Translations under genes and position numbers: made by a program
Notes under the pieces: generated by a model
The model's database searches: none
What the model was told of the DNA's origin: nothing
The model's input: the letters and a program-made list of their open reading frames with translations, nothing else
NCBI GenBank assembly: GCA_030463445.1
Contig: JAQGFW010008025.1
Span: 1 to 26,756, forward strand
DNA: 26,756 nucleotides
Direction: 5' to 3'
DNA from: Euplotes aediculatus
Taxonomy: Eukaryota; Ciliophora; Spirotrichea; Euplotida; Euplotidae
Shown here: one piece after another, positions 1,902 through 20,870 of the stretch
Layout: every line of letters starts with the position of its first letter
How positions within the stretch are numbered: position 1 is the stretch's first letter

Positions 1902-3167
1902 TTATAAACTACTATTTTCAAATGCCCTACTCATCAATTCTTGGTCATTTTTACTGATTTTGTAATGGGATGCTACTGTTTTCCATGTAGAAACTGTTTT
2001 TTTTACTGATTCCACTATTTGCTTGGCTTTATCATTTTTGATACGAAAATAGGGAGCAACTTCAATGGCTAAATTTATTTCTAAAGCGTTGTCTGTTTCA
2101 CTGATATTAAGTTTCAAACCTGACCCGTTTTCGTTGGGATTTATGTCATAAGCAGGTGATAATTCCCAACCTTTGGATGTGAGTAGAAAACCGTGATTTC
2201 GGAGGTGGTCGTCGGTATTTGATACACAAATACTAAAAACGATTCGTCGCCAGAGTTCTTCTAAATCTTTTTCGATATTTACCCCGTTTTGCATGATAAA
2301 TTCGGCCAATTGTAAATAACTTACTCCTTCCTGAAAGTCTGCTCCATCGGAATAACCAAGTAATGTCATGGCAGATGCAAAGTGAATTCTTTGATGCTGG
2401 ATTCTATCAAACCTTTTGGTGATAAAGGTATGGTGGCGGCCACTGAATTTTTCAATAAAGGCATCTGCTACATTTATCTGTGCTTGCTTGGCTAAATTAT
2501 GCACAACCATTTCCCATGCACCTACGTTTCTATCATCAAATTTGCTTGGAAATTTGGCTATCCATAATTGTTGGGACGGGTCAATTATACTTGCTTTAGG
2601 TCTTGCACCACCGAGTGAAGAACCTGGAGCCATGAGCATATTTAGCCATTTGATATATTCGGGGTCATTGATGCTATCTTCTTGTTCGAGTCGCAAACTT
2701 GCTTGTTCGAGTTCACGCAGTGAGGTGAATGGTGGTGCAGCCATTGCACGATTATCGTTCAAAAATGCCCCTGTATTTTCGAGTTTGAAACGTAATGCTC
2801 CCATACGGTGTTCGTCATAAACTCCTAATAGATAATCAGTTTCAAACAAAAGGTTTTCTTTTCGTTGCTCTTTTCTTGCCAACATTGCTTCTCTTCTTCT
2901 CATGAGCAAACGCCCCCAACGGTCGGGCGAAGAGTCCATGAAAATGCCAAAATTAGATTTTGAGTCATTTAGGAATTGTCGGCCTGAGAAAAATTGTAAA
3001 TCGGGGTCGAGTTGGATATAGTTTGATTTTAACCAGTCTTTGTTATACTCAAAAGCAAATATTTCTTTGCCTCTGATTTGAATCGCCGACAGATTTCCCA
3101 TCAAAGCTGGTTGAGCCTCGTTCATCCAATCGGCATAAACTAAAATATTTCGTTCTCTTTGGCTCAT
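1902..3167 (-). CDS. hipA: HipA-type serine/threonine kinase toxin
   Basis: 421-aa HipA-family kinase, about the family's usual length. Seen in order: an N-terminal HipA domain; the Gly/Ser-rich P-G-S-S-L-G-G-A-R-P-K-A loop at 181-192, which carries the likely autophosphorylated Ser; A-K-F-P at 204-207 with the ATP-site Lys; the catalytic loop N-T-D-D-H-L-R-N-H-G-F at 317-327 (Asp and Asn); and Y-D-I-N at 340-343 as the metal-binding Asp. All kinase landmarks are present, so it looks intact. In the family, HipA phosphorylates aminoacyl-tRNA synthetases and causes dormancy; the target here is unknown. The start codon overlaps the hipB stop (ATGA), so the two are translationally coupled. Confidence 0.9.
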   Translation of the reverse strand: MSQRERNILVYADWMNEAQPALMGNLSAIQIRGKEIFAFEYNKDWLKSNYIQLDPDLQFFSGRQFLNDSKSNFGIFMDSSPDRWGRLLMRRREAMLARKEQRKENLLFETDYLLGVYDEHRMGALRFKLENTGAFLNDNRAMAAPPFTSLRELEQASLRLEQEDSINDPEYIKWLNMLMAPGSSLGGARPKASIIDPSQQLWIAKFPSKFDDRNVGAWEMVVHNLAKQAQINVADAFIEKFSGRHHTFITKRFDRIQHQRIHFASAMTLLGYSDGADFQEGVSYLQLAEFIMQNGVNIEKDLEELWRRIVFSICVSNTDDHLRNHGFLLTSKGWELSPAYDINPNENGSGLKLNISETDNALEINLAIEVAPYFRIKNDKAKQIVESVKKTVSTWKTVASHYKISKNDQELMSRAFENSSL

Positions 3168-3466
3168 TTTTTTGTTTTTGAAGCACGTTTTTTTACTAAA
3201 ATTTCAGCATCTTGCAGTTTTCTACCTAAAACATCATCGTTGGCAATTGCTAAAAAGTTTTTTTCTAAGCCAAATATAAACAGCACTTGTAGGTATGAGC
3301 CTATAGCTACACTTGGTGTGCCTTTTTCGATTTGCCAAAGCGTAGAGCGGCTAATCCCTGCACGTTCGCATACTTGTTCGGTACTCAATTTTCGTCTCAA
3401 TCGTGCCAATTTAATATCCTCACCTAATTGATTGAGTATTTTTTGCTGGTTGGGCAATAATAGCAT
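3164..3466 (-). CDS. hipB: HipB-type XRE-family antitoxin/repressor
   Basis: Small helix-turn-helix protein (100 aa from the chosen start), partner and neutraliser of the HipA kinase and probable repressor of the operon. The XRE domain covers roughly residues 14-68 (G-E-D-I-K-L-A-R-L-R-R, then A-G-I-S-R-S-T-L-W-Q-I-E-K-G). The tail is lysine-rich (K-K-R-A-S-K-T-K-K). The reading frame opens earlier at a TTG (3487), but that codon overlaps the -7 promoter box at 3485-3492, so the ATG at 3466 is preferred. The ORF overlaps hipA by 4 nt. Antitoxin-first order is the standard hipBA arrangement. Confidence 0.88.
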   Translation of the reverse strand: MLLLPNQQKILNQLGEDIKLARLRRKLSTEQVCERAGISRSTLWQIEKGTPSVAIGSYLQVLFIFGLEKNFLAIANDDVLGRKLQDAEILVKKRASKTKK

Positions 3467-3484
3467 AATGTTTAATATTTTAAA

Positions 3485-3515
3485 CAAAAATAATTGTTTT
3501 GTTTTTTAAAACAAA
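3485..3515 (-). promoter_or_regulatory. hipBA promoter and candidate HipB operator
   Basis: Read on the minus strand, TTTG (3512-3515), then exactly 19 nt, then TATTTTTG (3485-3492): a full match to the Bacteroidetes TTTG-N19/20-TAnnTTTG promoter. Inside it lies an inverted repeat TTGTTTT-N7-AAAACAA (3494-3514) that covers the -33 box and spacer, the expected place for an autorepressor site. The predicted transcript has a very short leader before the ATG at 3466. Confidence 0.75.
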
Positions 3516-3590: not shown

Positions 3591-4656
3591 AATAGGAGTT
3601 ACGCAAAGTCATAAATAAATTGTCTTTGAGCCTCCCTAAAAATGAGATTTTTTAAATCGTAAACGGAATTTAAAAATCTATTTAGAGTCAAAGAAGCCAA
3701 TTTCTGAAAAGCGGTCAATACCCCGAATAAATGGGTTTTGATAGCATTGGTATCCCTCACAAAAAACTTTTCTGCTTGGCAGCATTGCTTGACCGCCCGA
3801 AAGAAATTTGCTACATTCCAATGCCTTATATGCACTTCGTCAAATTCTTCACGAGTGAAAAATTTGATGACTGAAATATCCTCCTGTTGTTGGTAAAGTG
3901 CATAGTGTCTCACGTCTCCGTCTTTTGAGACTGTCCGAAACACCTGCACAAAACCATATCCATTTAGATGGGTATATAAACCACTTTCTACAATGTCAAT
4001 ATCTCTAACATATTGATATTCAGATGGTTGAATAGATACGGTTCGATTGCTTTCTATCCCTACCATAAAATTTATCTCAAGATTTCTCAAGAATTTTAGA
4101 TTATCTGTAACGCTATACCGCACGGGCGGCCCCGCAACTGTCGGCTGTTATCCATTTTGGACGCAACCCCCAATTCCATAATTCTCTTACCATTTCTTGA
4201 AAATATTCATTCTTAGTCTTTTCGTCCGATTTTCGATATACTCGAAAATTGACTGGAATACAATACCCACTTTTACTGCTATAAACTAAAACAATAATAT
4301 TTATACCTTGTACTACTTTATGATGTTTGCCAGAGTAAAATTTACCGACTAATTCTGTTGTACCTCGTTTTGAATAAGGCTTATCCAAAACAGAATCATC
4401 GACACTCAATGTTCCTCCCTCCAAATCTAAACTCTTGTAAACTGATTTGAATAGGCTTTTTCCATCAAATTTGCCACTAAGTAGGAAGCGATTTACTTCG
4501 TCATGACTTATAACTAAGGCTTTTGATGCTTTTACACAACTGCTACCTGATGGACTACTCATCAAATAAGCTACATACTCTCCTAAATCCATAGCATTTT
4601 TAATGCTAAATTAATACTTTTCAACCTAAAATTTAGATATCTGCGTAACTCCTATT
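3591..4656 (-). mobile_element. insertion sequence, IS701/IS4-like DDE type, 1066 bp
   Basis: Bounded by 15-bp perfect terminal inverted repeats (AATAGGAGTTACGCA at 3591-3605 and its complement at 4642-4656). ATTA flanks both sides (3587-3590 and 4657-4660), a possible 4-bp target duplication, though the flanks are AT-rich. It encodes one DDE transposase on the minus strand, now in two frames. The family call rests on the D-D-S-V-L-D-K-P-Y-S-K motif and a C-terminal F-R-A-V-K-Q region. It sits between hipB and a truncated TonB-type gene. Confidence 0.85.
3599..4592 (-). pseudogene. DDE transposase interrupted by a GC-rich 16-nt insertion
   Basis: The N-terminal part (4592 to about 4136, from MDLGEYVAY) carries the first catalytic region D-D-S-V-L-D-K-P-Y-S and runs to W-I-T-A-D-S. 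The C-terminal part (from Y-S-V-T-D-N-L-K-F to 3599) carries H-I-R-H-W-N-V-A-N-F-F-R-A-V-K-Q, matching the E-box region of IS4-type enzymes. Between them, positions 4120-4135 hold 16 nt, 15 of them G or C, exactly after the second catalytic Asp context T-A-D-S-W. Without them the two parts join in one frame as D-S-W-Y-S-V. As it stands, a stop follows a few codons later and the enzyme should be inactive. The stop codon lies within the terminal repeat at 3599-3601. Confidence 0.85.
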
Positions 4657-9420: not shown

Positions 9421-9915
9421 TCAATTTGGCAATTTGTCTTTAAAATATCCATAAGTCCACGTACCTGCAATGGCACTTAGGAGCGTTACCAAAACAACGA
9501 CAAATCCACTACCGATTTGAGCAAAAAGTGGCCCCGGACACGCCCCTGTAATCGCCCAACCTAAACCAAAGAGTAAGCCACCATACACCTGGCCTTTTTG
9601 AAATTTCTTTGGGTGAAACTCCACCGTTTCGCCAGAGATGGTTTTGATATTGAATTTTTTGATTAAGAAAACCGAAATCATACCCACCACAACAGCACTT
9701 CCGATGACTCCGTACATGTGAAAACTCTGAAAACGGAACATCTCTTGGATACGAAACCACGAAATAATTTCGGCTTTTACGAAAACGATTCCGAACATAA
9801 TCCCAACAACAAGGTATTTCAAGTTATCGATGAGGCTCTCTTTTTTTTTCATGTCGTTTGGTGCCTCACACACAAACGCCTCTTCTGGTTTTACAATTTC
9901 TTGAATATTATTCAT
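9421..9915 (-). CDS. YeeE/YedE-type sulfur-transport membrane protein (DUF6691-like half)
   Basis: 164-aa membrane protein with about four hydrophobic segments. G-L-G-W-A-I-T-G-A-C-P-G-P (117-129) contains Cys126 in the G-A-C-P-G-P motif of the YeeE/YedE family, where such cysteines hand on thiosulfate or sulfane sulfur. A soluble 30-residue N-terminus precedes the first helix. It is one half of a split transporter; the partner is encoded just upstream at 10045-10620. A 129-nt gap separates them, without a recognisable promoter. Bacteroidetes often place this pair beside rhodaneses and thiosulfate enzymes, as here. Direction and exact substrate cannot be read from sequence. Confidence 0.8.
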   Translation of the reverse strand: MNNIQEIVKPEEAFVCEAPNDMKKKESLIDNLKYLVVGIMFGIVFVKAEIISWFRIQEMFRFQSFHMYGVIGSAVVVGMISVFLIKKFNIKTISGETVEFHPKKFQKGQVYGGLLFGLGWAITGACPGPLFAQIGSGFVVVLVTLLSAIAGTWTYGYFKDKLPN

Positions 9916-10044: not shown

Positions 10045-10620
10045 TCAAAATAACTTAAAAATTTGTGGCAAAATAACGTGTGTCATCGTGATACCGCCAA
10101 TCATAAAACAACACGTTGCGATGAGCGATGGTAATTGCAGATTTGATAAACCCATGATTGCGTGTCCTGATGTACATCCGCCTGCGTAGCGAGTTCCGAA
10201 TCCGACCATGAATCCTCCTAAAACAAAGAAAATCAAACCTTTAACCGAAAATAGTGTTTCGACCGAAAATAAATCTGCCGGCATCAAACCCGAAAAGTCT
10301 TTGATTCCGAGAGCTTTTAAGTCATTAATTGTTGCTTCCGAAAGTACAAATGTGTTTGGGTTTTCTAAGAAATTGGTAGCAATCATTCCACCAAAAAATA
10401 CACCTAAAACAAAAACTAAATTCCAGATTTCTTTTTTCCAATCATACTTGAAAAACGGGACATTGGCAGGGATACACGCTGCACAGACATGGCGAAGGGA
10501 CGACGAAATTCCGAATGATTTATTTCCAATTAATAAAAGGGTCGGTACAGTAAGGCCAATCAATGGCCCTGCCACATACCATGGCCACGGTTGTAAGATA
10601 AAATCAAACATTTCTTTCAT
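10045..10620 (-). CDS. YeeE/YedE-type sulfur-transport membrane protein
   Basis: 191-aa membrane protein, the second half of the split YeeE/YedE pair. Segments: W-P-W-Y-V-A-G-P-L-I-G-L (11-22), a loop with C46 and C49 (H-V-C-A-A-C), a helix at about 68-84, and the family signature R-Y-A-G-G-C-T-S-G-H-A-I-M-G (144-157) with Cys149. In the thiosulfate transporter TsuA, three cysteines line the path and pass the substrate by S-H...S contacts; the cysteines here are candidates for that role. The gene follows the porin gene by 18 nt, so a porin-YeeE-YedE operon is likely. This would give outer and inner membrane passage for a small sulfur anion. Confidence 0.85.
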   Translation of the reverse strand: MKEMFDFILQPWPWYVAGPLIGLTVPTLLLIGNKSFGISSSLRHVCAACIPANVPFFKYDWKKEIWNLVFVLGVFFGGMIATNFLENPNTFVLSEATINDLKALGIKDFSGLMPADLFSVETLFSVKGLIFFVLGGFMVGFGTRYAGGCTSGHAIMGLSNLQLPSLIATCCFMIGGITMTHVILPQIFKLF

Positions 10621-10638: not shown

Positions 10639-12042
10639 TTAATAATGATAATTGATGATTATGTTTATATGGGTCATATTTACTTTATTGAACACAAATC
10701 GGTCGTTTTGGTAGGTTTCGCCCAAATCGTCTTTTCTGACTACCAACAATAGTGCATTAAGTCCTTTCAAAAAATGGTCGAATTGGTAAGTAACCCCCAG
10801 ATTTATTTGCGAATACGATGGCATTCCGTATTTATTCAATTCAAAATTCTTAACATCGGGTAGCCTGAAAAAACCGCCACTCAACTCGACCTTGATATGT
10901 TTTTCGGGTTTGTAGTAAGTATTTACCGAAACCGCCGAAACCCCGCCCATACCTTCGTTTCTTTCTCGTGGCATAAATGTATAAAAAGGCTCTCTGCCCC
11001 ACTCACGAGGCATCAAATAACGACCTTCGGCCGAGATTCTTGTTCCGTTGAGAAACCAATCAAATTTGGGTGATTGATGCCCAACTCTACCCGAAACAAC
11101 AGTTGATGTATTTCCTTCGTGAGCATACGCTACTTTAGAGTCTTCGTTTCCGCCGTTTCCGACTACATTTTGGCGAATCAATTGCCCGCCCAAAAACCAA
11201 TTTGAATTTACGATTGGCTTAGATTTCCACTCAACTTTTAGCATAGCCGTATTAAGCAAATTTTCGATGAATGTATCCCAAACCTGAAAACTCCACTGAT
11301 TTTTTCGATAGGTTGCTCCCAGAATCCCGACTCCTTTCGATTCTACGTGTCCTTTATACTGCGATGCCGTGCCAAGCTCGTTTACACCTACTGGATAAAT
11401 GCCGATGCTTTCACCAACTTTGAACCATCTGACCGTTGAGCGAGGAGATATTCGCCAAATGTACTCTCCGTGAAAACTCAAGTTTTTGATTTCATTCAAT
11501 TCAAACACAGTGGCCTCGGTAAGTGTCGGACGCATCCTTCCATCTTGTGGATTAATAAATGGTGTTTTCGGAATCTGCCTTCCAATCGTCAATGTCGATT
11601 TTTTCCCGAAATGAGTTTTTAGGAATAATTCTTCCAATCGGTCTAAATCTTCGTGGTCATTCGGTCTTTCGATATCAAACAAGCCAATTTCATACCGGTT
11701 ACCCTGATTGGTTTTGGGGTCAGTTTTTGATAAATCCGAAGATTTAACATTAAACATAAAAAATCCACTCAATCCTACCTGAAAGTGTTTCAGAAATTTG
11801 GGTGTCTCGTAACCAATCCCTGCTCCAACTCCCCAAGCATAATAATCGGTCAGTTCTTTTTGGTTGGTTGTCTGGGCTAAATATGACCTTGCATGACCAT
11901 AAAATCTACCTTTTTCAAAAAAATGGTTTAGCGTATTGGTATCTTTTTCAATCCCTTGGTGCGAATGAATACCTTGTGCTTTAAGGACTTCTATCGAATT
12001 ACAAAATGATACAACAACAAGTAAAATTCTGATTTTCATCAT
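10639..12042 (-). CDS. outer-membrane beta-barrel porin (OprD-like)
   Basis: 467 aa with a signal peptide (M-M-K-I-R-I-L-L-V-V-V-S-F-C, cleavage probably after L-K-A-Q). The mature part alternates aromatic and polar residues as in a beta barrel and ends in I-N-I-I-I-N-Y-H-Y, an aromatic-terminated last strand. R-F-Y-G-H-A-R-S-Y-L near the start and G-R-Q-I-P-K-T-P-F-I-N-P-Q-D-G-R-M in the middle recall the OprD/OprB-like porin class. It is first in a unit with the two YeeE/YedE genes. A CRP-type site and a -7 box lie directly upstream, so uptake of an anion such as thiosulfate is a reasonable guess; the family assignment is by overall pattern only. Confidence 0.75.
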   Translation of the reverse strand: MMKIRILLVVVSFCNSIEVLKAQGIHSHQGIEKDTNTLNHFFEKGRFYGHARSYLAQTTNQKELTDYYAWGVGAGIGYETPKFLKHFQVGLSGFFMFNVKSSDLSKTDPKTNQGNRYEIGLFDIERPNDHEDLDRLEELFLKTHFGKKSTLTIGRQIPKTPFINPQDGRMRPTLTEATVFELNEIKNLSFHGEYIWRISPRSTVRWFKVGESIGIYPVGVNELGTASQYKGHVESKGVGILGATYRKNQWSFQVWDTFIENLLNTAMLKVEWKSKPIVNSNWFLGGQLIRQNVVGNGGNEDSKVAYAHEGNTSTVVSGRVGHQSPKFDWFLNGTRISAEGRYLMPREWGREPFYTFMPRERNEGMGGVSAVSVNTYYKPEKHIKVELSGGFFRLPDVKNFELNKYGMPSYSQINLGVTYQFDHFLKGLNALLLVVRKDDLGETYQNDRFVFNKVNMTHINIIINYHY

Positions 12043-12062: not shown

Positions 12063-12070
12063 CAAAACTA
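12063..12070 (-). promoter_or_regulatory. -7 box of the porin operon
   Basis: TAGTTTTG on the minus strand, fitting TAnnTTTG, 20 nt upstream of the porin ATG and exactly 21 nt downstream of the CRP-type site. Confidence 0.65.
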
Positions 12071-12091
12071 CCAGTTAACCCAATCGTCGTC

Positions 12092-12107
12092 CGTGACAAA
12101 TGTTACA
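12092..12107 (-). promoter_or_regulatory. CRP-type binding site, porin operon
   Basis: CGTGACAAATGTTACA on the plus strand; 15 of 16 positions are identical to the tsdA site at 14972. The same 21-nt gap to the -7 box is found at all three sites, placing the centre near -43, the class II activator position. Probable target of the regulator encoded at 20229. Confidence 0.75.
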
Positions 12108-12152
12108 TTTGAATAAGAATCTTGTAAAAAGTTGGTTATACGCCAATCGTCG

Positions 12153-13829
12153 TTAAACAAATTTATAATCTATTCCCGAAACCTGACTGAGCAAATCTTG
12201 TGGTCCATCCAAAATCTTGGCATCGTGGCGAAGTTGCGGAGTTACAGGCGAAAACTTCTGCAAATACTCTTTCAACATTGAATGCAAAGTAAATGATGTA
12301 TTTGTACCTTCTTTTACGCCTTTCATCCTGCAAAGCATATCTTCGGGGTCGCCATCACGCTCGCAAGCACACAGCACATAAACTTTGTTTAAATCTATTG
12401 GCTCATCGGCAATTGTTACTTTTTGTACTCGATGCCCCATTCTTTCAAAAGCCTTAAACTCTACTTGCATTCCTTTGAACCGAATCAACCAACCCCCAAA
12501 ACGTTTTGAGGCATCTTGGGCAAATACATTCTGAAGCTCTTTTTCGAGCCAATCTTTGATTTTTTGTCCCGTAGCTTTGGCGGTTCGGATAGTCGCATCT
12601 ACGGGCAACATATCGTATAAATAGCCTTCAGTTATGGCAACCTTGCCGTCTTTACCAGCCACCTTCGGCGGACAAAACCTAAAACCATTCGATAAAACGA
12701 CATCGGCATTTACCTTCCATTTGAGAGCATCTACAATCATCGTATCAATGGTATTCTCTACCACAAAGTTTCGGTACAACGGTAAAGTGCTGTATCCGAT
12801 TACTCGATTTAATTCTTCTTTATAGGGTTTTTCGATTTGTTCGATGATTTCAATAATTTCTTTTTTTGCTGGATATTTTTCTGGATTTACCTCAATAAGT
12901 TGGTAATTTTCGCCCACGATTTTACCGTTTTCGACCTTTAAATCTAAGCGACCGATAAATGACCCAAAAGCTCCGGGTTCAACTATTTTTGTGTATTCAG
13001 CTTGGATTGGTTTACGAACACGCTCGTGCGTATCAGCCCCGAAAATGTAATCAACACCTCGGCAATCTGGATGATTTCCTAATGCAATTTGTTGGGATAA
13101 TCCTAAATGCGAAAGTATAATCACAAAGTCGCATTGTTCTTGTTCTTTCAAAATCGAAACGTATTCTTTCAGATTTTCCTCAGGCTTTGTGTAAACAATT
13201 CCTTTACTGTAAAGTGGCGACTGACGAAGCGGAACTAATGGGTCGGTATAACCCAAAAATCCGATTTTTATGCCCAAACGATGAATAATTTGGTAAGGCT
13301 GAAAAATCAGTTCTCCTCTTTTTCCTTCGCCGAGGTCGTGGTACATATTGGCACAGACTTTCGGAGCATAGAGGCTTCCGAGTAGTTTTTGCATATTCTT
13401 TTTATAATAAACAACCTCCCAATTTCCAGGTAAATAAAGGTCGTAATTCAGAGCATTCAAGAGCGGAACAAACGCCTGACCGTTGGTTTTGACCGAAAGC
13501 ATACTTCCCTGAAACATATCACCCGTATCCATCGTGATAGTATTTGCCGGATTTTCTTTTTTCATGACATCGAGAGCCGTTGCAACATGGGCATAACCGC
13601 CCGCTTTGCGAAATGTAAGTTGGTTATTCTCCCAAAATAATTCGTCGTGGGCATGAAGTTGGCAATGCACATCGGTAGTTTGAAGAAGTGTAATTGTACC
13701 GCTTTTTGATGCCTCCGAGCCACTTAATTTATCGGCTAAATTCGATTCATTAGCTAAAATTGCCGACGGTGTACTTACCGAAGCCGTAGCCAACAAGCCA
13801 GACTGTAAAAATTGTCTTCTTGATTGCAT
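12153..13829 (-). CDS. SoxB-like metallohydrolase (Tat-exported)
   Basis: 558 aa of the 5'-nucleotidase/SoxB superfamily. The Tat signal S-R-R-Q-F-L (3-8) sends it to the periplasm. Metal motifs: T-D-V-H (52-55), D-T-G-D (101-104), G-N-W-E (135-138), S-H-L-G (240-243) and G-A-D-T-H-E (264-269). A Trp after Asn136 where nucleotidases have the catalytic His (GNHE) recalls SoxB, as does C-E-R-D-G-D-P-E-D-M-L-C-R in the C-terminal domain. Asp267 stands where the family has the first His of G-x-H-T-H. SoxB releases sulfate from a SoxYZ-bound thiosulfonate, but no SoxYZ, SoxAX or SoxCD genes are in the window, so the carrier is uncertain. It follows tsdA by 32 nt, probably in one operon. Confidence 0.8.
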   Translation of the reverse strand: MQSRRQFLQSGLLATASVSTPSAILANESNLADKLSGSEASKSGTITLLQTTDVHCQLHAHDELFWENNQLTFRKAGGYAHVATALDVMKKENPANTITMDTGDMFQGSMLSVKTNGQAFVPLLNALNYDLYLPGNWEVVYYKKNMQKLLGSLYAPKVCANMYHDLGEGKRGELIFQPYQIIHRLGIKIGFLGYTDPLVPLRQSPLYSKGIVYTKPEENLKEYVSILKEQEQCDFVIILSHLGLSQQIALGNHPDCRGVDYIFGADTHERVRKPIQAEYTKIVEPGAFGSFIGRLDLKVENGKIVGENYQLIEVNPEKYPAKKEIIEIIEQIEKPYKEELNRVIGYSTLPLYRNFVVENTIDTMIVDALKWKVNADVVLSNGFRFCPPKVAGKDGKVAITEGYLYDMLPVDATIRTAKATGQKIKDWLEKELQNVFAQDASKRFGGWLIRFKGMQVEFKAFERMGHRVQKVTIADEPIDLNKVYVLCACERDGDPEDMLCRMKGVKEGTNTSFTLHSMLKEYLQKFSPVTPQLRHDAKILDGPQDLLSQVSGIDYKFV

Positions 13830-13861
13830 ATTTTGATAGTTTTTAGGTCTTTTGCTGAATA

Positions 13862-14914
13862 TTAAATGGTTTTCTTTTTATGTGCAGCCTTCCAATCTTT
13901 AATTGGTTTAAACGGCCCATATTTATGTTGTTTTTCGGGGAATGGGTCGGAGTACGGCCCAAACGGATGGTCGAATGGCTTACCCGCAATATTTGGCCAA
14001 TCTTTGCTTAGGTCTTTTTCGGGCCGAGGCATTGAGTTTACAAACGCCGCAACATCCCACGCTTCTTCATCGTTTAGTTGAGGTTTATCATAAGTTGCCC
14101 CCAATGGCATATTGTATTTTGCATAGCCCGCAAAATTCGAGATTCGGTACAATCCTGCTCCATGATTGTAGCTATTTTTGCCCCAAAGTGGTGGGTAAGT
14201 ATAACTTTTTCCATCTTCTGCCAACAAACCTTCTCCATTTGCTTGATGACAAGTCTGGCATTTTTGTTCGTAAACCAATCTACCTTTATCGGGGTCTGCA
14301 GCACGTTTCAAACCCTTGAGTTTAAAAATCCCCGAACCTTTTGGTGCCATTTTTTTGGGTACATCTGAGCCAAGCCATTTGATATATGCCAAAATCGCTT
14401 TCATTTCTCTACTGCTCGAATCAAGACCTCTTCCGTTGAGACTTCTTTCAAAACAATCATTTACTCGCTTCACCTGATTCTCGACCGAACCCGACCTTTC
14501 TCTAAATTTCGGATAAGTTGATTGTACTGCAAAGTAATTATTCCCCCACGGCTGAGTACCAGCATTCAGATGGCAATTTTGACAATTCATACCATTTGAG
14601 ATTTGAGCAACACTACCTTTCGGGCCGAGGTATTCGGATGTATGAGCAATGAGTTCTTTGCCGTATTTGACCAATTTTTGTTCTTCGACATCCAAACGCA
14701 TCATTCTCCAGTCGGATGGAGCAGTCCAGAGATTTACAAAATTTGTATCAATTTTTACAAATTCTTTTTTTTCGGTAGAAACTTTTGTTTTGGGAGTATG
14801 GGCAAGAAATAAATTTAGGAGTAATCCCGAAATGACCAAGATTATTAATAAAACTAAGATATTAAGTGCAATAAAAAGCCGTTTTGAACTTTTTTCGTCA
14901 ATAATATTATTCAT
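13862..14914 (-). CDS. tsdA: TsdA-like dihaem thiosulfate dehydrogenase
   Basis: 350-aa membrane-anchored dihaem cytochrome c. An N-terminal helix (about 12-38) places the rest in the periplasm. Haem 1 site C-Q-N-C-H at 111-115 in the context N-G-M-N-C-Q-N-C-H-L; Cys154 in V-N-D-C-F-E-R-S-L-N-G fits the unusual axial Cys ligand of TsdA catalytic haem. Haem 2 site C-Q-T-C-H at 219-223 with Met269 (Y-N-M-P) as likely distal ligand. TsdA joins two thiosulfates to tetrathionate (or the reverse), passing electrons to the respiratory chain. cydAB lies just upstream on the same strand, a possible final oxidase through the quinone pool. A CRP-type site and -7 box precede the gene. Confidence 0.85.
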   Translation of the reverse strand: MNNIIDEKSSKRLFIALNILVLLIILVISGLLLNLFLAHTPKTKVSTEKKEFVKIDTNFVNLWTAPSDWRMMRLDVEEQKLVKYGKELIAHTSEYLGPKGSVAQISNGMNCQNCHLNAGTQPWGNNYFAVQSTYPKFRERSGSVENQVKRVNDCFERSLNGRGLDSSSREMKAILAYIKWLGSDVPKKMAPKGSGIFKLKGLKRAADPDKGRLVYEQKCQTCHQANGEGLLAEDGKSYTYPPLWGKNSYNHGAGLYRISNFAGYAKYNMPLGATYDKPQLNDEEAWDVAAFVNSMPRPEKDLSKDWPNIAGKPFDHPFGPYSDPFPEKQHKYGPFKPIKDWKAAHKKKTI

Positions 14915-14942
14915 CCAATCAATCAGATTTGTTAACTAATAA

Positions 14943-14950
14943 CAAAGATA
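14943..14950 (-). promoter_or_regulatory. -7 box of tsdA-soxB
   Basis: TATCTTTG on the minus strand, fitting TAnnTTTG, 28 nt before the tsdA start and 21 nt downstream of the CRP-type site. Confidence 0.65.
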
Positions 14951-14971
14951 TTGGATTGTTTGAGAGATATA

Positions 14972-14987
14972 TGTGACAAATGTTACA
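14972..14987 (-). promoter_or_regulatory. CRP-type binding site, tsdA-soxB
   Basis: TGTGACAAATGTTACA, a near-perfect palindrome of the TGTGA-N6-T(C/T)ACA kind. It lies between cydB and tsdA, 21 nt from the -7 box, as at the porin and peroxiredoxin promoters. Confidence 0.8.
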
Positions 14988-15043
14988 TATTAAAAATATT
15001 TTAGGATTATTTCGATAAATAAAGTGATTTTTTAGAGACGAAA

Positions 15044-16078
15044 TCAATAACTCGTTTCGTCGAGCTTGACTTTGCCTCTGAATGTCCAGAATACAAAAGT
15101 TGTGTATGAAAGTACCAACGGAAAACCAATCGCCGCAAAAAGCAACATTATTTTTAATGATTTTGCCGATGATGCCGCTTTTTGAATTGTTATGTTGTAA
15201 TCGGGATTGATACTCGAAATAATGATATTTGGGTAAAACGAAACGGCAACCATAAGCATCAACAAAGCAGTGACACCTGCCGAAGAAAGGAAAGCAAAAA
15301 AGTATTTTCGTTTAGAAATCAATCGGGTAATATTGGCTACCAATAAAATTGCTCCAATCGGCAATACGAATAGAGCAGGATAATCCTTAAAATCTTGGCT
15401 CATGTGTGGTAAGTACAGCCATGTAGCTACCGTAGTTATTGAAAACATCAAGACAAAAAATATGGTGGTATTTTTTACAAGAACCGTGAGTTTTGCATAA
15501 AGGCGATTCTCGGTTTTCATGGTAAGGTAGATTCCGCCGTGCATCATAAACAATGAAAGTGTCGTGATTGCGATTAGTATAGCATAAGGATTAAAGAAAT
15601 CAATAAGATTTCCGTGATAATCAAAGTTTTGGTCAATGGCAACTCCTTGAACCACATTGCCAAGCACCAAACCCAAAGCTAAAGAAATCATACAACTCGA
15701 AACACAATACGAAATATCCCAGAGTTTTCTCCACCAAAGCATGGGTTCTTTGCTACGAAATTCTATCGAAATTGCTCGCATGATGAGCATTACCAAAAAA
15801 AGAATAATCGGGATATAAAAAGCCGAGAATAAAGTACCATAAACTACCGGAAAACCCGCAAACAAAGCCCCACCACCAATCACAAGCCAAACCTCGTTGC
15901 CATCCCAAACCGGTCCGATAGCATTGAGTGCAATTCGGCGGCTTTCTTCTTTATTAAAAAACAAATGCAATGCACCTGCACCTAAATCAAAACCATCGAG
16001 GATTGCGTATCCTGAGAATAATCCGCCAACAATCAAAAACCACCAAGTAGATAATTCGATTCTGAGTATTGTTTCCAT
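15044..16078 (-). CDS. cydB: cytochrome bd quinol oxidase subunit II
   Basis: 344-aa polytopic membrane protein with the CydB N-terminal signature G-P-V-W-D-G-N-E-V-W-L (residues 55-65) and eight to nine hydrophobic helices. Subunit II supports the haem-bearing subunit I in reducing oxygen to water with electrons from quinol, without pumping protons. The start is one base beyond the cydA stop, so the two are co-translated. No cydX-like small ORF was recognised after it. In other bacteria cytochrome bd resists sulfide inhibition, which would suit a locus handling reduced sulfur; that link is inference. Confidence 0.93.
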   Translation of the reverse strand: METILRIELSTWWFLIVGGLFSGYAILDGFDLGAGALHLFFNKEESRRIALNAIGPVWDGNEVWLVIGGGALFAGFPVVYGTLFSAFYIPIILFLVMLIMRAISIEFRSKEPMLWWRKLWDISYCVSSCMISLALGLVLGNVVQGVAIDQNFDYHGNLIDFFNPYAILIAITTLSLFMMHGGIYLTMKTENRLYAKLTVLVKNTTIFFVLMFSITTVATWLYLPHMSQDFKDYPALFVLPIGAILLVANITRLISKRKYFFAFLSSAGVTALLMLMVAVSFYPNIIISSINPDYNITIQKAASSAKSLKIMLLFAAIGFPLVLSYTTFVFWTFRGKVKLDETSY

Positions 16079-16079
16079 A

Positions 16080-17456
16080 TCAGTTGTTATTTGGAATTAA
16101 ATTTCTTTTTGAACTCTCTTCACTTTCTTCTTCGTGAATTACCGTATAACCATGTTTGATTTTTTTATTGAGCAAATAAATAAAAAGTAGAAAAAGTAGC
16201 GAATAAACCAAAGTGAATAAGACCAACGAAAACATCACATGCTCGGCTGTAACCGATTTTGAGAGAGCATCGGATGTTCTCAACAATCCATAAACTACCC
16301 ACGGCTGTCTCCCGACTTCGGCGGCATACCAACCTACTTGATTGGCAATTTGTGGCAATAAAACCGCCCAAGAAAAGATGAACATCAACCACTTTTTATC
16401 GAAAAGATTCCCTCTAAACCAATAATAAACTCCCAAAAGAGTTAAGGCAATCAATCCCATGCCGATAGCAACCATCAAATGATACATTTGAAATACAAAA
16501 TTGACAGCGGTCGGCCTGACTGATTTATCGAATGATTTTAAGCCTTTTACGGGTGTTGTAAAGTCTTGATGCAGAAGAAAAGTTAATCCTTTGGGGATTT
16601 TGATACCCTTGACCTGTTCGGTTTTGGTATCTACCCACCCAAAAAGGTACATATCGGCCACGGCAAGCGAATCATAATGCCCCTCAAAAGCTGCTAATTT
16701 AGCAGGCTGATTGACGGCAACACCATCGGCCGAGCGATGACCCGTAAATAACTGAAGCAGAGCAGCCACAATAGCAATACTTAAAGCAATTTTGAAAGCA
16801 GGTTTGGCGATTTCGACATCACGTTTGCGGCGGATAAAGTAGGCATTTACACTCAAAACCAAAAATGAACCCGACAACATTGCCCCAATTACGACATGCG
16901 AGAGCCTATCCATACTCGAAGGATTGAAAACCATTGCCCAAAAGTCGGTGATGATGGCACGAGCCGCCATGCCTTGGCCTTCGATTACAAAACCTGCGGG
17001 TGTTTGCTGCCACGAATTGGCAACCACAATCCAGATTGCCGAAAAAGTAGAACCAAGTGCTACCATCAGCGTGGCTATAAAATGGGTTCGGTGGCTCACA
17101 CGATTCCAGCCAAAAAGCAATACCCCCAAAAAGCCGGATTCTAAGGCGAATGCAAAGATACCTTCGGCGGCCAATGCACTACCAAAAATATCGCCGACGT
17201 ATCTCGAATAAACTGCCCAGTTAGTACCAAATTCAAACTCCATAACAATTCCCGTTGCAACGCCAATCCCGAAGATTAAAGCAAAAATTTTAATCCAAAA
17301 GCGGGTCATTTGCTCATAAATTGGGCTTTTAGTTTTGAGGTATTTCCATTCCATCAAAACCAAAGTCCACCCCAAACCAATGCTCAAGGGTGGGTAGATA
17401 TAATGAAATGCTACCGTGAAGGCAAACTGTATGCGAGATAGTATTTCGACATTCAT
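16080..17456 (-). CDS. cydA: cytochrome bd quinol oxidase subunit I
   Basis: 458 aa from the chosen ATG. The frame opens earlier with a TTG at 17480, but M-N-V-E-I-L-S-R-I-Q-F-A-F-T-V-A-F-H is the classic CydA N-terminus, with His18 as haem ligand. Other family features: G-H-R-S-A-D-G-V-A-V-N-Q-P-A-K-L-A-A-F-E-G in the quinol-loop region and G-W-Y-A-A-E-V-G-R-Q-P-W-V-V-Y-G near residue 385. It is shorter than the 522-aa E. coli protein, consistent with the short quinol-loop type. A TATATTTG box lies about 20 nt upstream, so cydAB may have its own promoter as well as read-through from the rhodanese gene 76 nt away. No CRP-type site at the standard distance is seen here. Confidence 0.94.
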   Translation of the reverse strand: MNVEILSRIQFAFTVAFHYIYPPLSIGLGWTLVLMEWKYLKTKSPIYEQMTRFWIKIFALIFGIGVATGIVMEFEFGTNWAVYSRYVGDIFGSALAAEGIFAFALESGFLGVLLFGWNRVSHRTHFIATLMVALGSTFSAIWIVVANSWQQTPAGFVIEGQGMAARAIITDFWAMVFNPSSMDRLSHVVIGAMLSGSFLVLSVNAYFIRRKRDVEIAKPAFKIALSIAIVAALLQLFTGHRSADGVAVNQPAKLAAFEGHYDSLAVADMYLFGWVDTKTEQVKGIKIPKGLTFLLHQDFTTPVKGLKSFDKSVRPTAVNFVFQMYHLMVAIGMGLIALTLLGVYYWFRGNLFDKKWLMFIFSWAVLLPQIANQVGWYAAEVGRQPWVVYGLLRTSDALSKSVTAEHVMFSLVLFTLVYSLLFLLFIYLLNKKIKHGYTVIHEEESEESSKRNLIPNNN

Positions 17457-17532
17457 GGTGAAGTCATTTTGATGAACCAAATATAGTGATAAACTTAAAC
17501 CAAACAGAATTATTGCCCTACTATTTTAGGGT

Positions 17533-17928
17533 TTATTTAGGAGTTTGAATAGCAAAACCAGAAGCCTGCCAAGCATTGATTCCGCCTTCGAGATTATAGA
17601 TTTGTTTGAAACCTTTTTCTTGAAGAATCTGCCCTGCACCAATGCTTCGCCCACCAACGGCACAATAAACAAAAACGGGTTTCGATTTATCAAGTTTCTC
17701 GATTTCAGACTCAAAAGAAGGGCTATTGTAGTCAATCTGCACGGCTGAATTGATTATGCCTATTGCGACTTCATCGTTGGTTCTGACATCCAAAACGATT
17801 TTTTCAGGGCTTTTATCCATCATTTCTTTGAATTGATTGGCCGATAAATTAACCACCGATTGTTCTCCACCGCAATTCCACAAACCAATAATAGTCAATC
17901 CTATGAATAAATTTTTTAATAATTTCAT
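17533..17928 (-). CDS. exported rhodanese-like sulfurtransferase (probable lipoprotein)
   Basis: 131 aa. The N-terminus M-K-L-L-K-N-L-F-I-G-L-T-I-I-G-L-W-N-C-G-G looks like a lipoprotein signal with Cys19 as lipid anchor, although W-N before Cys is an unusual lipobox. The rhodanese domain follows (about 28-128), with D-V-R-T at 47-50 and the active-site loop C-A-V-G-G-R-S (Cys89-Ser95). Rhodaneses carry sulfur as a Cys persulfide; this one would work at the periplasmic side or envelope, near the TsdA and SoxB-like proteins. It lies 23 nt after the methyltransferase gene, so the two are probably co-transcribed. Confidence 0.85.
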   Translation of the reverse strand: MKLLKNLFIGLTIIGLWNCGGEQSVVNLSANQFKEMMDKSPEKIVLDVRTNDEVAIGIINSAVQIDYNSPSFESEIEKLDKSKPVFVYCAVGGRSIGAGQILQEKGFKQIYNLEGGINAWQASGFAIQTPK

Positions 17929-17951
17929 ATCCCTTAATTTAATAATTCGTA

Positions 17952-18548
17952 TTACAATTTTTTAGCAATCATCCTAACTACATGCCCTTTGCCTTGGTGA
18001 TAAAGTCCTTCGTCGAGTTCGATAACTTTGTCTTCGAGTAAGAGAATAGTCAGATTTTTGAAATCGTTTTCTAATTCTTCAGTCGTGAATAAGAATGCTT
18101 CATCTTTTGGTCCACCAGACTGATAAAACTTTTGATTTTTGTGGAATCCTTCAAAAATGATATAGCCCGATTTTTTTAGAGATTGTTCGATTTTTTGATG
18201 AAAATCCGAACGCAGTTCTGGCGGGAAATGCGTATAAAACAATCCAATGGCATCAAACAGATTTTGTTCCACAACAAAATCTGCTACATCCTTGACCTCA
18301 TATTTTAAACAAGCATCGTAGCGGTTGGCTAATTCAAAAGCCTTTACCATTCCTTCGATACTAAAATCAAAAGCTGTTACATCCCATCCTTTACGTGCGG
18401 CATAAACGGCATTTCGTCCTTCACCTTCGGCAGGGAGCAGAATCCGTCCAGCAGCCAGTTTGTCTATGTTTTCTTGAAAAAATTCATTAGGTCTTGTTCC
18501 ATAAGCAAAAGTGGGTGCTTTGTAGCGTTGATTCCAAAATTCTTTCAT
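17952..18548 (-). CDS. class I SAM-dependent methyltransferase (TehB/TPMT-like)
   Basis: 198-aa Rossmann methyltransferase. F-W-N-Q-R-Y-K-A-P-T-F-A-Y-G-T-R-P-N-E-F at the N-terminus and the SAM motif I variant I-L-L-P-A-E-G-E-G-R-N-A (36-47), then A-F-D-F-S (59-63), are typical of the small TehB/thiopurine methyltransferase-like group. Family members methylate tellurite, selenite or thiols. Flanked by two rhodanese genes in a sulfur locus, methylation of sulfide or a small thiol is a plausible role, but the sequence does not show the substrate. No signal peptide; cytosolic. Confidence 0.8.
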   Translation of the reverse strand: MKEFWNQRYKAPTFAYGTRPNEFFQENIDKLAAGRILLPAEGEGRNAVYAARKGWDVTAFDFSIEGMVKAFELANRYDACLKYEVKDVADFVVEQNLFDAIGLFYTHFPPELRSDFHQKIEQSLKKSGYIIFEGFHKNQKFYQSGGPKDEAFLFTTEELENDFKNLTILLLEDKVIELDEGLYHQGKGHVVRMIAKKL

Positions 18549-18628
18549 AAAGTCAGTTCAAATTAGGTCAAAAAATAGTAACGAAACACCCAATAGCAGA
18601 TTTAAACCACTTACTATAAACAAAGGTC

Positions 18629-18955
18629 TTAATAAGGCCAGCTCATAATTCCACCAGCAAGATTATATACTTTTTCAAAGCCAGCTTCAGTCATAATCAG
18701 GCAAGCACTACCGCTACGGTTTCCGCTACGGCAATATACAAGGTAAGTTTTGTCCTTATCAAGATTTGAAACCTGCTGAACAAAGTCTGGGCTCATTATA
18801 TCAATATTTACAGCACCATCGAGGGCTTCTTGATGATACTCAGCTGAGGTTCTCACATCAAGAATTACTGCATCTGGATTTTCGTTCATCAAATGATAGA
18901 ATGTCATGGCAGTGGCATTCTGATACGTTTTTATTGTTTTTAGAAAATCGAACAT
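18629..18955 (-). CDS. rhodanese-like sulfurtransferase (cytosolic)
   Basis: 108-aa single rhodanese domain without signal peptide. D-V-R-T-S-A-E-Y at 33-40 and the active-site loop C-R-S-G-N-R-S at 75-81 with catalytic Cys75. The six-residue loop after Cys with Arg at its start is the form that binds thiosulfate or persulfides. It is the intracellular counterpart of the exported rhodanese at 17533. It is downstream of the peroxiredoxin gene, separated by 59 nt that contain a GC-rich hairpin, so it may be partly co-transcribed with it. Confidence 0.88.
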   Translation of the reverse strand: MFDFLKTIKTYQNATAMTFYHLMNENPDAVILDVRTSAEYHQEALDGAVNIDIMSPDFVQQVSNLDKDKTYLVYCRSGNRSGSACLIMTEAGFEKVYNLAGGIMSWPY

Positions 18956-18983
18956 GATTAATATCGTTTAAGTTTTGAGAATC

Positions 18984-19004
18984 GGGTGGTAACACTTACC
19001 ACCC
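18984..19004 (-). terminator. GC-rich hairpin after the peroxiredoxin gene
   Basis: GGGTGGTAA (18984-18992) pairs perfectly with TTACCACCC (18996-19004), 3-nt loop, 11 nt past the peroxiredoxin stop. No T-run follows, so it may be an attenuator, processing site or mRNA-stabilising hairpin rather than a full terminator. Confidence 0.5.
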
Positions 19005-19014
19005 AGTTTAAAAA

Positions 19015-19662
19015 TTACAATGTTTTTTTAGCAAGATAGAAATCCATCATTTCTAAATCACTGTTGTTTCTCTCGATAAGAGCCTCAACGGTTTTTGGTG
19101 CAGGAATAATCACCTTTGCACCCGGTTCCCAATTAAGCGGCATCGCTACCTTGTGTTCGTCAGAGGTTTGGAGTGCCAAAAGACATCTTTTGATTTCTTC
19201 CATATTGCGGCCAACATTGAGCGGATAATACATTATCAATCTGATTTTACCTGTAGGGTCAATAAAGAAAACAGCTCTAACGGCTGCGGTTTCGCTTTCG
19301 CCGGGTTGGAGCATTCCCCAAAGTTTTGAAATACTCATATCAATATCGGCAACGATTGGGAATTTGAACAACACCCCTGAATTTTTACGGACATTATCTA
19401 CCCACGCAATGTGTGAATGAATACTGTCGATGCTCAAACCCATGAGTTTGCAGTTATGTTGGTCAAAAAAACTCTCTTGCTCGTTTGCAAATCCGCTCAT
19501 TTCGGTTGTACAGACTGGTGTAAAATCGGCAGGATGCGAAAAGAAAATTACCCAATTATCTTTATTGTATTCCGAAAACTTTATTTTTCCTGTTGTTGTA
19601 ACTGCTTCAAAATCTGGAGCTATATCGCCAATTCTTGGCATTTGGTTCACATGTTCTGACAT
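19015..19662 (-). CDS. 1-Cys type peroxiredoxin (Prx6 family)
   Basis: 215 aa. The peroxidatic motif H-P-A-D-F-T-P-V-C-T-T-E (43-54) has Cys51. The long C-terminal domain with P-L-N-W-E-P-G-A-K-V-I-I-P-A-P is that of the Prx6 family. R-A-V-F-F-I-D-P provides the conserved Arg. A second Cys in I-K-R-C-L-L-A-L is present, but no C-terminal resolving pair is obvious. The enzyme reduces hydrogen and organic peroxides; peroxiredoxins also react with persulfides. A CRP-type site with the same layout as the tsdA and porin promoters lies upstream, tying it to the sulfur regulon. Confidence 0.92.
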   Translation of the reverse strand: MSEHVNQMPRIGDIAPDFEAVTTTGKIKFSEYNKDNWVIFFSHPADFTPVCTTEMSGFANEQESFFDQHNCKLMGLSIDSIHSHIAWVDNVRKNSGVLFKFPIVADIDMSISKLWGMLQPGESETAAVRAVFFIDPTGKIRLIMYYPLNVGRNMEEIKRCLLALQTSDEHKVAMPLNWEPGAKVIIPAPKTVEALIERNNSDLEMMDFYLAKKTL

Positions 19663-19701
19663 TTCTGTATTTGTATTTAGATTATCAATTTATTTATGAT
19701 A

Positions 19702-19709
19702 CAAATTTA
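19702..19709 (-). promoter_or_regulatory. -7 box of the peroxiredoxin gene
   Basis: TAAATTTG on the minus strand, fitting TAnnTTTG, 39 nt before the start codon and 21 nt downstream of the CRP-type site. Confidence 0.65.
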
Positions 19710-19730
19710 GCCCGCCCTCAAAACGATTTC

Positions 19731-19746
19731 TGTGATAAAAGTTACA
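19731..19746 (-). promoter_or_regulatory. CRP-type binding site, peroxiredoxin
   Basis: TGTGATAAAAGTTACA, differing from the tsdA site at two central positions while keeping both half-sites. Its 21-nt distance to the -7 box is identical to the other two sites. Confidence 0.75.
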
Positions 19747-19822
19747 GTAGTGAAAAAATATTTGAAAAATCTATAATATTTTAATATAATATAGATTTAA
19801 GTAATGGATTATTCATTAAAAA

Positions 19823-19857
19823 ACCACAAAGTCATGAGATAAACACGTCTTTGTGGT
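19823..19857 (-). terminator. terminator of the crp-DUF202 unit
   Basis: ACCACAAAG pairs with CTTTGTGGT (9 bp) around a 17-nt loop. Read on the minus strand the stem is followed by TTTTTAATG. It lies 62 nt past the DUF202 stop. Confidence 0.7.
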
Positions 19858-19918
19858 ATAAATATTCGAGGAATATCCGATTATTACGTTAAAGCCTAAG
19901 CATCAGAATTTTATGCGA

Positions 19919-20218
19919 CTACTGAAAATACTCATCCTTAAAATTACCAATATGAATCTTGCTCTGATTGATTCTTCTTCGGTGAATGATATAATTAACA
20001 ACTCCATAAATGAACAATCCCGCCGAAAAACTAAAAAATAGATACTGATAAGCAATATCGGTTTTTATAAGATTTTCGATTGATAATCCCGCAACCAAAA
20101 AATACATTGAAGTTCGTAAAAATGCCAAAAAAGTAGATTGATTTGCCAAAATTGTTCGCTGAATTGCGAGCCTTTCACGCAAAATCAAGTCTTTGTTTAT
20201 TCGCTCTTCGTTTTTCAT
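19919..20218 (-). CDS. DUF202 (YidH-like) small membrane protein
   Basis: 99 aa from the ATG at 20218; the frame also opens at a GTG (20236) that would overlap the crp gene. D-L-I-L-R-E-R-L-A-I-Q-R-T-I-L-A-N-Q-S-T-F-L-A-F-L-R-T is the DUF202 hallmark (R-E-x-L-A-x-x-R-T...L-A-x-x-R-T), followed by two membrane helices and a short basic loop. The function of the family is unknown. It begins 11 nt after the regulator's stop, so it is in the same transcript and may be a membrane partner of that stress response. Confidence 0.82.
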   Translation of the reverse strand: MKNEERINKDLILRERLAIQRTILANQSTFLAFLRTSMYFLVAGLSIENLIKTDIAYQYLFFSFSAGLFIYGVVNYIIHRRRINQSKIHIGNFKDEYFQ

Positions 20219-20228
20219 GTGTGATTGA

Positions 20229-20870
20229 TTAAGCACTAAGTAGTTCTATTTTGTTCCGAGAGAGTTTAACTCGACCCATTTTTTCGAGTTGTTTCAACAG
20301 TCTCGAAATCACTTCTCTCGATGTCGCAAGTTCAATACCGAGTTCTTCGTGTGTGATATTAAAAACTGTACAGCCACACTGCTTTGATTTTTTTTGGAGT
20401 AATGCCACCAGTCTTTCGTCGAGTTTCAAGAACACAATCTGGTCAATTGCAGTAAGTAAATCATCAAACCTCCTCTGATAAGTCATAAAAACGAATTGTT
20501 TCCAAGATGAATATTTCGACATCCATTCTTCGACTTTTTCGGTCGGAATCATCAAAAGCGAGGTTTTCATATCTGCAACAGCCACTATTTCACTTTGTTT
20601 ATGATTGAGGCAACACGTCAAAGACATCGCACACGAGTCTTTATCGCCTAAGTAATAAAGTAACGCTTCTCTCCCATCATTATCTGCTCTCGAAATCTTG
20701 ATTGAGCCTTCTAAGATAATAGGTACCGACCTGATAAATCCGCCAGAATTAAAAAGAACTTGTCCTTCTTCAAATTCCTTGAATTTACCCACTTTAATCA
20801 TTTCTTCTAATAAACCTTGTTCAAATAATCCGCCAAATTTATTTCTTAGAAAAGATATGTCTAATGTCAT
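20229..20870 (-). CDS. Crp/Fnr-family regulator with cysteine-rich sensor region
   Basis: 213 aa. The cyclic-nucleotide-binding-like beta roll is at about 20-115, the dimer helix at 120-150, and the winged HTH at 160-210. The recognition helix T-S-R-E-V-I-S-R has Arg185, Glu186 and Arg190, spaced like the Arg-Glu-Arg of E. coli CRP that reads TGTGA. Cys80, Cys86 and Cys87 cluster in D-S-C-A-M-S-L-T-C-C, and Cys165/Cys167 form C-G-C near the HTH. The N-terminal Cys set of FNR is absent, so it is not a classical Fe-S FNR. Matching palindromes precede three local sulfur or redox operons. Sensing by thiol or persulfide chemistry is an inference. Confidence 0.88.
   Translation of the reverse strand: MTLDISFLRNKFGGLFEQGLLEEMIKVGKFKEFEEGQVLFNSGGFIRSVPIILEGSIKISRADNDGREALLYYLGDKDSCAMSLTCCLNHKQSEIVAVADMKTSLLMIPTEKVEEWMSKYSSWKQFVFMTYQRRFDDLLTAIDQIVFLKLDERLVALLQKKSKQCGCTVFNITHEELGIELATSREVISRLLKQLEKMGRVKLSRNKIELLSA

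Follow-up and report, generated by a model that had tools for sequence, protein, structure and literature searches.

Candidate operators of a Crp/Fnr-family regulator ahead of three sulfur operons

The sulfur locus and its three composite sites

The window, by which we mean the whole stretch of 26,756 nucleotides analysed (contig JAQGFW010008025.1), contains a sulfur locus whose genes all lie on the minus strand. The first operon begins with an OprD-like outer membrane porin (10639–12042; Pfam PF03573, E 1e-8), followed by a YeeE/YedE-type half transporter, a candidate for thiosulfate or sulfur import (10045–10620; PF04143; 38 bits with the TsuA model, below its cutoff), and a second YeeE/DUF6691 half transporter (9421–9915; PF04143, PF20398). 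The second consists of a TsdA/SoxA-type cytochrome c, a candidate thiosulfate dehydrogenase (13862–14914; PF21342, PF00034), and a candidate SoxB-like thiosulfohydrolase (12153–13829; TIGR04486, E 2e-80, 270 bits, below the 550-bit equivalog cutoff). The names SoxB and TsuA are used here for candidates only, because the model scores are below the equivalog cutoffs. The third operon encodes a 1-Cys-type peroxiredoxin (Prx; 19015–19662; PF00578, PF10417; NF009668 above cutoff), a single-domain rhodanese (18629–18955; PF00581), a TPMT-like methyltransferase (17952–18548; PF05724, PF13649), a second rhodanese (17533–17928; PF00581) and subunits I (16080–17480; PF01654) and II (15044–16078; PF02322) of a cytochrome bd oxidase. 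On its upstream side the Prx operon is adjoined by the genes for a Crp/Fnr-family regulator (20229–20870; PF00027, PF13545) and for a DUF202 protein (19919–20236; PF02656), which overlaps the end of the regulator gene.

Ahead of each operon lies a Crp-type palindrome followed, in the direction of transcription, by 21 nt and a −7 box. Read directly on the minus strand, the porin composite is TGTAACATTTGTCACG-N21-TAGTTTTG from 12107 down to 12063 (operator 1, 12092–12107; box, 12063–12070), the tsdA composite is TGTAACATTTGTCACA-N21-TATCTTTG from 14987 down to 14943 (operator 2, 14972–14987; box, 14943–14950), and the Prx composite is TGTAACTTTTATCACA-N21-TAAATTTG from 19746 down to 19702 (operator 3, 19731–19746; box, 19702–19709). 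The start codons follow the boxes after 20 nt (porin), 28 nt (tsdA) and 39 nt (Prx). An earlier note on this DNA had described the three sites as TGTGA-N6-TTACA, with one C for the first T, each 21 nt from a TAnnTTTG box and upstream of the porin, tsdA or peroxiredoxin gene. Positions and pattern are exact to the base, the gap is exact at all three sites, and each of the three genes heads an operon.

The same note considered coincidence improbable, and by the figures the arrangement is far beyond chance. Two exact copies of TGTGA-N6-TTACA stand in the window, with 0.05 expected; operator 1 deviates from this pattern by one base, C replacing the first T. This deviation is kept in relatives, where CACG closes the coding strand of most orthologous porin sites. 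A 45-bp matrix, trained on the sites of other genomes only and then run over the window, recovered the three operators (scores 34.0, 33.0 and 28.6 for operators 1 to 3) and no further site, the next-best position scoring 5.3. In first-order Markov versions of the window (n=30), the best matrix score averaged 4.8 and the highest was 26.5. An operator in the window's own crp promoter was sought with the matrix and none was found.

Conservation of the composite site in related genomes

A first survey started from 13 loci that encode relatives of the regulator, and 12 of their genomes were scanned with a loose pattern allowing any gap from 10 to 32 nt. Among the 29 matches, 14 had a gap of exactly 21. 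Some of these 14 lie ahead of genes for a TsdA ortholog (75% identity), for a YeeE ortholog (73% identity) and for metallo-beta-lactamase-rhodanese proteins. The earlier note had proposed a scan of related genomes: in 150 genomes of the related group, a gap of 21 dominates with 66 of the 150 matches listed, compared with a mean of 3.8 for every other gap length. The nominal Poisson P for this excess among the matches listed is 1e-56, without correction for the relatedness of the genomes, which are non-independent samples, so that our P values are nominal. The gap-21 sites comprise 38 distinct 16-mers. A sample of 296 genomes from across the phylum gave 80 matches, 39 of them with a gap of 21.

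The sites follow the regulator. An ortholog of the local Crp protein, defined by at least 54% identity, is encoded in 63 of the 150 genomes, and these hold 61 of the 66 gap-21 sites among the matches listed. When the ortholog is close (at least 64% identity), 25 of 31 genomes have a gap-21 site, again among the matches listed. For 17 of the 61 sites the crp gene is no more than 20 kb away, a significant proportion judged against a small comparison group. In genomes with the ortholog, 18 of 20 loci had a composite site upstream of the YeeE homolog; in genomes without it, 2 of 20 had one. This difference may be confounded by the on average greater divergence of YeeE homologs from ortholog-less genomes. 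At the two exceptional loci, the site precedes TauE-like genes.

Annotation of operons in 40 fetched regions placed gap-21 sites ahead of tsdA-dsrE-soxB, of porin-yeeE1-yeeE2, of a gene for a TauE exporter and of a metallo-beta-lactamase plus rhodanese-domain protein of the persulfide-dioxygenase type; in the genome of one relative the crp gene itself is preceded by such a site. Conservation ahead of orthologous genes, on which the earlier note had made its reading depend, is thus seen for porin/YeeE and for tsdA, and more weakly for Prx. Operator 2 is kept before tsdA orthologs. Of nine Prx orthologs (69–91% identity), four have a degenerate gap-21 counterpart directly ahead of their gene, so that among the three predicted operators that of Prx is conserved least. 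The computation shows that the sites exist, that their spacing is fixed, that they are kept ahead of orthologous genes and that they occur together with the regulator. Among 54 sites, 39 are hybrids of one TGTGA and one TGTAA half (Fisher P 0.007). This bias is modest, and a rule requiring one half of each kind per site was not built on.

Promoter geometry and the regulator protein

In Flavobacterium psychrophilum, the TAnnTTTG box has been mapped at −12 to −5 (PMC9723704). Combined with the 21-nt gap, this position puts the palindrome at −49 to −34, with its centre at −41.5. The latter is the class II position of Escherichia coli CRP. The sites thus pair a TGTGA-type palindrome with a class II centre, which rests on the box mapping in the other species, and this computed centre supports the class II activator suggested in the earlier note. 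A conserved −33 element was looked for in the spacer among the gap-21 sites and none was found, as expected for an activator-dependent promoter. Start codons are mostly located 15–50 nt past the box. The E. coli class II promoters are alike in having a TGTGA-N6-TCACA-type palindrome at −41.5 and 21 bp between the 16-mer and the −10-type element, and CRP has the same recognition residues as the local regulator. They differ in that the box here is the sigma-A box TAnnTTTG, that the halves are often one TGTGA and one TGTAA, and that the cAMP contacts are missing.

The local protein belongs to the Crp/Fnr superfamily: PF00027 and PF13545 score above cutoff, and its AlphaFold (AF2) model (mean pLDDT 89) matches CRP-family structures, with residues 81–89 forming a helix in the cNMP-binding domain. 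Arg185, Glu186 and Arg190, which the earlier note had pointed out, are present and identical in 44 of 44 aligned sequences. In the same alignment Cys80 is identical in all 44, Cys86 in 42 and Cys87 in 41. In a wider set of 37 sequences Cys80 is invariant, Cys86 nearly so, and the recognition residues are invariant or nearly so; this set includes a clostridial protein of 31% identity whose gene lies beside rhodanese genes. The nearest solved structure is 3DV8, a Crp/Fnr protein of Eubacterium rectale (27% identity, E 9e-17), which has cysteines aligned at positions 80 and 86. Unlike the local regulator it is clostridial, and it is described merely as a putative regulator.

The protein lacks defining traits of cAMP-dependent CRP, of FNR and of HcpR2. 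The positions equivalent to the E72 and R82 contacts of cAMP-dependent CRP are Met82 and Gln92, as inferred from an ungapped alignment around Ser93, and the Gln92 position is variable. FNR is marked by an N-terminal cysteine cluster for a [4Fe-4S] centre and by the site TTGAT-N4-ATCAA. Here no Cys precedes residue 80 and the sites are of TGTRA type. HcpR and HcpR2, found in Bacteroidota and others, share the Crp/Fnr fold, and the HcpR motif GTAACnnnnGTTAC is close to the present one (PMC1274295). They differ in having hcp as target, in the heme-dependent NO response of HcpR (PMC12750200) and, for HcpR2, in Pro in place of Glu181, a glutamate that is kept here as Glu186 in 44 of 44 sequences. 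Among the annotated genes of the window and the regulon genes near orthologs there is no hcp gene; the hcp-like genes of two genomes have sites at gaps 21 and 22.

Regulators that sense persulfides, such as CstR, SqrR/BigR and FisR, have cysteines that react with sulfane sulfur. The fold of the local protein is Crp/Fnr, not the CsoR or ArsR fold of CstR and SqrR/BigR. Cys80, Cys86 and Cys87 may be candidate sulfane-sulfur-reactive cysteines at the ligand pocket. Two orthologs without Cys86-Cys87 still keep the sites, and we rejected this pair as a requirement for the regulon. The paralogs (33–41% identity) keep the Arg-Glu-Arg residues, Cys80 and Met82, not Cys86-Cys87.

Proposed control of sulfane-sulfur metabolism

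The three palindromes are very probably operators of a Crp/Fnr-family activator that controls sulfane-sulfur metabolism, and its likeliest gene is that at 20229–20870. Bound at −41.5, the regulator would overlap the place of the missing −33 element and, as a class II activator, would recruit the Bacteroidota sigma-A polymerase to the TAnnTTTG box. Turning on the first operon would allow thiosulfate uptake through the porin and YeeE1/2, and turning on the second would allow thiosulfate oxidation by TsdA and the SoxB-like protein. The third would provide for the handling of sulfane sulfur and peroxide by Prx, the two rhodaneses, the methyltransferase and the CydAB bd oxidase. Beyond the genes that the earlier note had named, the predicted regulon here takes in the SoxB-like, rhodanese and cytochrome bd genes, to which relatives add TauE, the persulfide-dioxygenase-type rhodanese and DsrE. 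The signal may be sulfane sulfur or a related thiol-reactive species, sensed at Cys80, together with Cys86-Cys87, in the place of cAMP. We infer that the local protein rather than a paralog is the binder and that it activates, and infer in the same way the identity of the signal.

For the signal, parallels were drawn with three systems. In Erythrobacter flavus, TsdA and SoxB convert thiosulfate to zero-valent sulfur, and the pair is reported in Bacteroidetes (PMC7608252). The pairing of tsdA and soxB is the same at our locus; unlike here, Crp-type control is not mentioned in the consulted passages of that paper. In Hyphomicrobium, SoxR/sHdrR with SoxT control thiosulfate oxidation and YeeE-like transporters (PMC11582611; PMC12423496), the YeeE-like proteins importing sulfur for oxidation and signalling (PMC11582611); these regulators differ from ours in being ArsR-type repressors of a different phylum. 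The persulfide-controlled CstR of the Staphylococcus cst operon targets TauE, a persulfide dioxygenase-sulfurtransferase and sulfurtransferases (PMC5480029). The TauE and persulfide-dioxygenase-sulfurtransferase content matches the regulon of the relatives, and the difference lies in the regulator, a CsoR-like repressor there and a Crp-family activator here. These parallels would point to persulfide or sulfane sulfur as the most likely signal and to Cys80 as its most likely sensor.

The main rival for the signal step is a sensor of heme or redox type. The regulator would then detect a diatomic gas, the redox state or sulfide through heme or another cofactor, with Cys80 and Met82 as metal ligands, both of which are common even to paralogs outside the sulfur-locus clade. 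CooA has a cysteine ligand in a similar place. It is absent among the structure matches listed, which is uninformative either way. Heme binding is reported for HcpR and PgRsp, relatives of the regulator within the Bacteroidota (PMC12040651). We nevertheless consider such a sensor unlikely, as the regulon consists of sulfur chemistry and Cys86-Cys87 is largely limited to the sulfur-locus orthologs.

A different doubt concerns the binder. The sites could be true class II Crp/Fnr operators bound mainly by another paralog, the local protein having a narrower or overlapping role. Since paralogs at 33–41% identity keep Arg-Glu-Arg and Cys80, cross-binding is possible; the recognition residues are common to them, and one genome has a 34% paralog within its sulfur locus. 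In other Bacteroidota, hcp-like, thioredoxin, DUF983 and DsbD-like genes are headed by palindromes that are nearly identical to these and stand at the same position, and two genomes without a close ortholog have sites before TauE. With this palindrome and spacing in use at other genes of the phylum as well, the geometry is evidently common to several Crp/Fnr proteins. The presence of the sites, however, follows the local Crp ortholog and they cluster near the crp gene, which leaves a paralog as main binder quite improbable.

It is very unlikely that a cAMP-CRP catabolite regulon happens to include the sulfur genes. The half sites, spacing and recognition helix are CRP-like and the top NCBIfam match is CRP, but its 45 bits are far below the 266-bit cutoff, Met and Gln, or varying residues, occupy the two positions that contact the cAMP phosphate, and the regulon is sulfur-specific; the residues of the ligand pocket led us to reject control by cAMP. 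Chance resemblance, or repeated DNA without a regulatory role, for which only the one random window in 30 reaching a score of 26.5 could be cited, is rejected as next to impossible because of the gap histograms and the conservation at orthologous promoters, with which all comparative evidence agrees.

For the activator encoded at 20229–20870, a broader proposal can be put forward tentatively, at somewhat less than even confidence. It would represent a new Crp/Fnr subfamily of Bacteroidota that senses sulfane sulfur by cysteines at the place of cAMP in CRP. Acting strictly as a class II activator at −41.5, it would govern thiosulfate import, thiosulfate oxidation and persulfide detoxification, and would thus be the activating equivalent of the CstR and SqrR/SoxR repressors. 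In the open literature we found no report of Crp-family control over thiosulfate or persulfide genes in this phylum; subscription papers were mostly outside this search, and priority is not established by it.

What is understood of the control of sulfur oxidation comes mainly from ArsR- and CsoR-type repressors of other phyla. Here, a conserved activator regulon would be legible from sequence across the Bacteroidota, which form a major phylum in soil and water, and its candidate sensor site is open to test by single mutations. On the unusual TAnnTTTG promoters of these bacteria, the class II Crp geometry appears to be preserved down to the base pair, and so fixed a geometry may offer a ready rule for predicting Crp/Fnr regulons in Bacteroidota.

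Gene content of the window

A DsrE-family gene sits between tsdA and soxB in several relatives but is absent from this interval in the window (13829–13862). Two adjacent ORFs of 174 and 159 amino acids (3599–4592, minus strand) look like one transposase split through a frame change, and at 1902–3487 a HipA-like protein and a neighbouring small ORF of helix-turn-helix-like character probably form a toxin–antitoxin pair.

Promoters of hcp-like and DsbD-like genes

At two comparison loci (L142, L143), hybrid-cluster-protein-like genes are preceded by the palindromes TGTAACCTTGGTTACA and TGTAACATTGGTTACA, with gaps of 21 and 22 nt to the TAnnTTTG box. Both agree with the motif described for HcpR2, GTAACnnnnGTTAC (PMC1274295), and these gaps place the motif at the class II position. 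The gene for a DsbD-like protein is preceded in five genomes (L155, L156, L158, L162, L163) by a separate conserved promoter with a gap of 22 nt. Its sites are TGTAACGTNGGTCACA-like (TGTAACGTTAGTCACA at one locus), and the box-to-start-codon distance is unusually long (about 259 nt).

Relatives of the regulator and their cysteines

A Clostridium saudiense Crp/Fnr protein (L013:10001-12708; about 31% identity to the regulator) has Cys80 and Cys86. Two rhodanese genes adjoin its gene, which suggests that the Crp/Fnr–sulfur link extends to Bacillota. Two regulator orthologs (58% identity; L204:3223-3855, L209:1905-2537) lack Cys86 and Cys87 and retain Cys80; with both, the operators upstream of YeeE are retained. 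These orthologs represent a natural test for which cysteine of the regulator matters.
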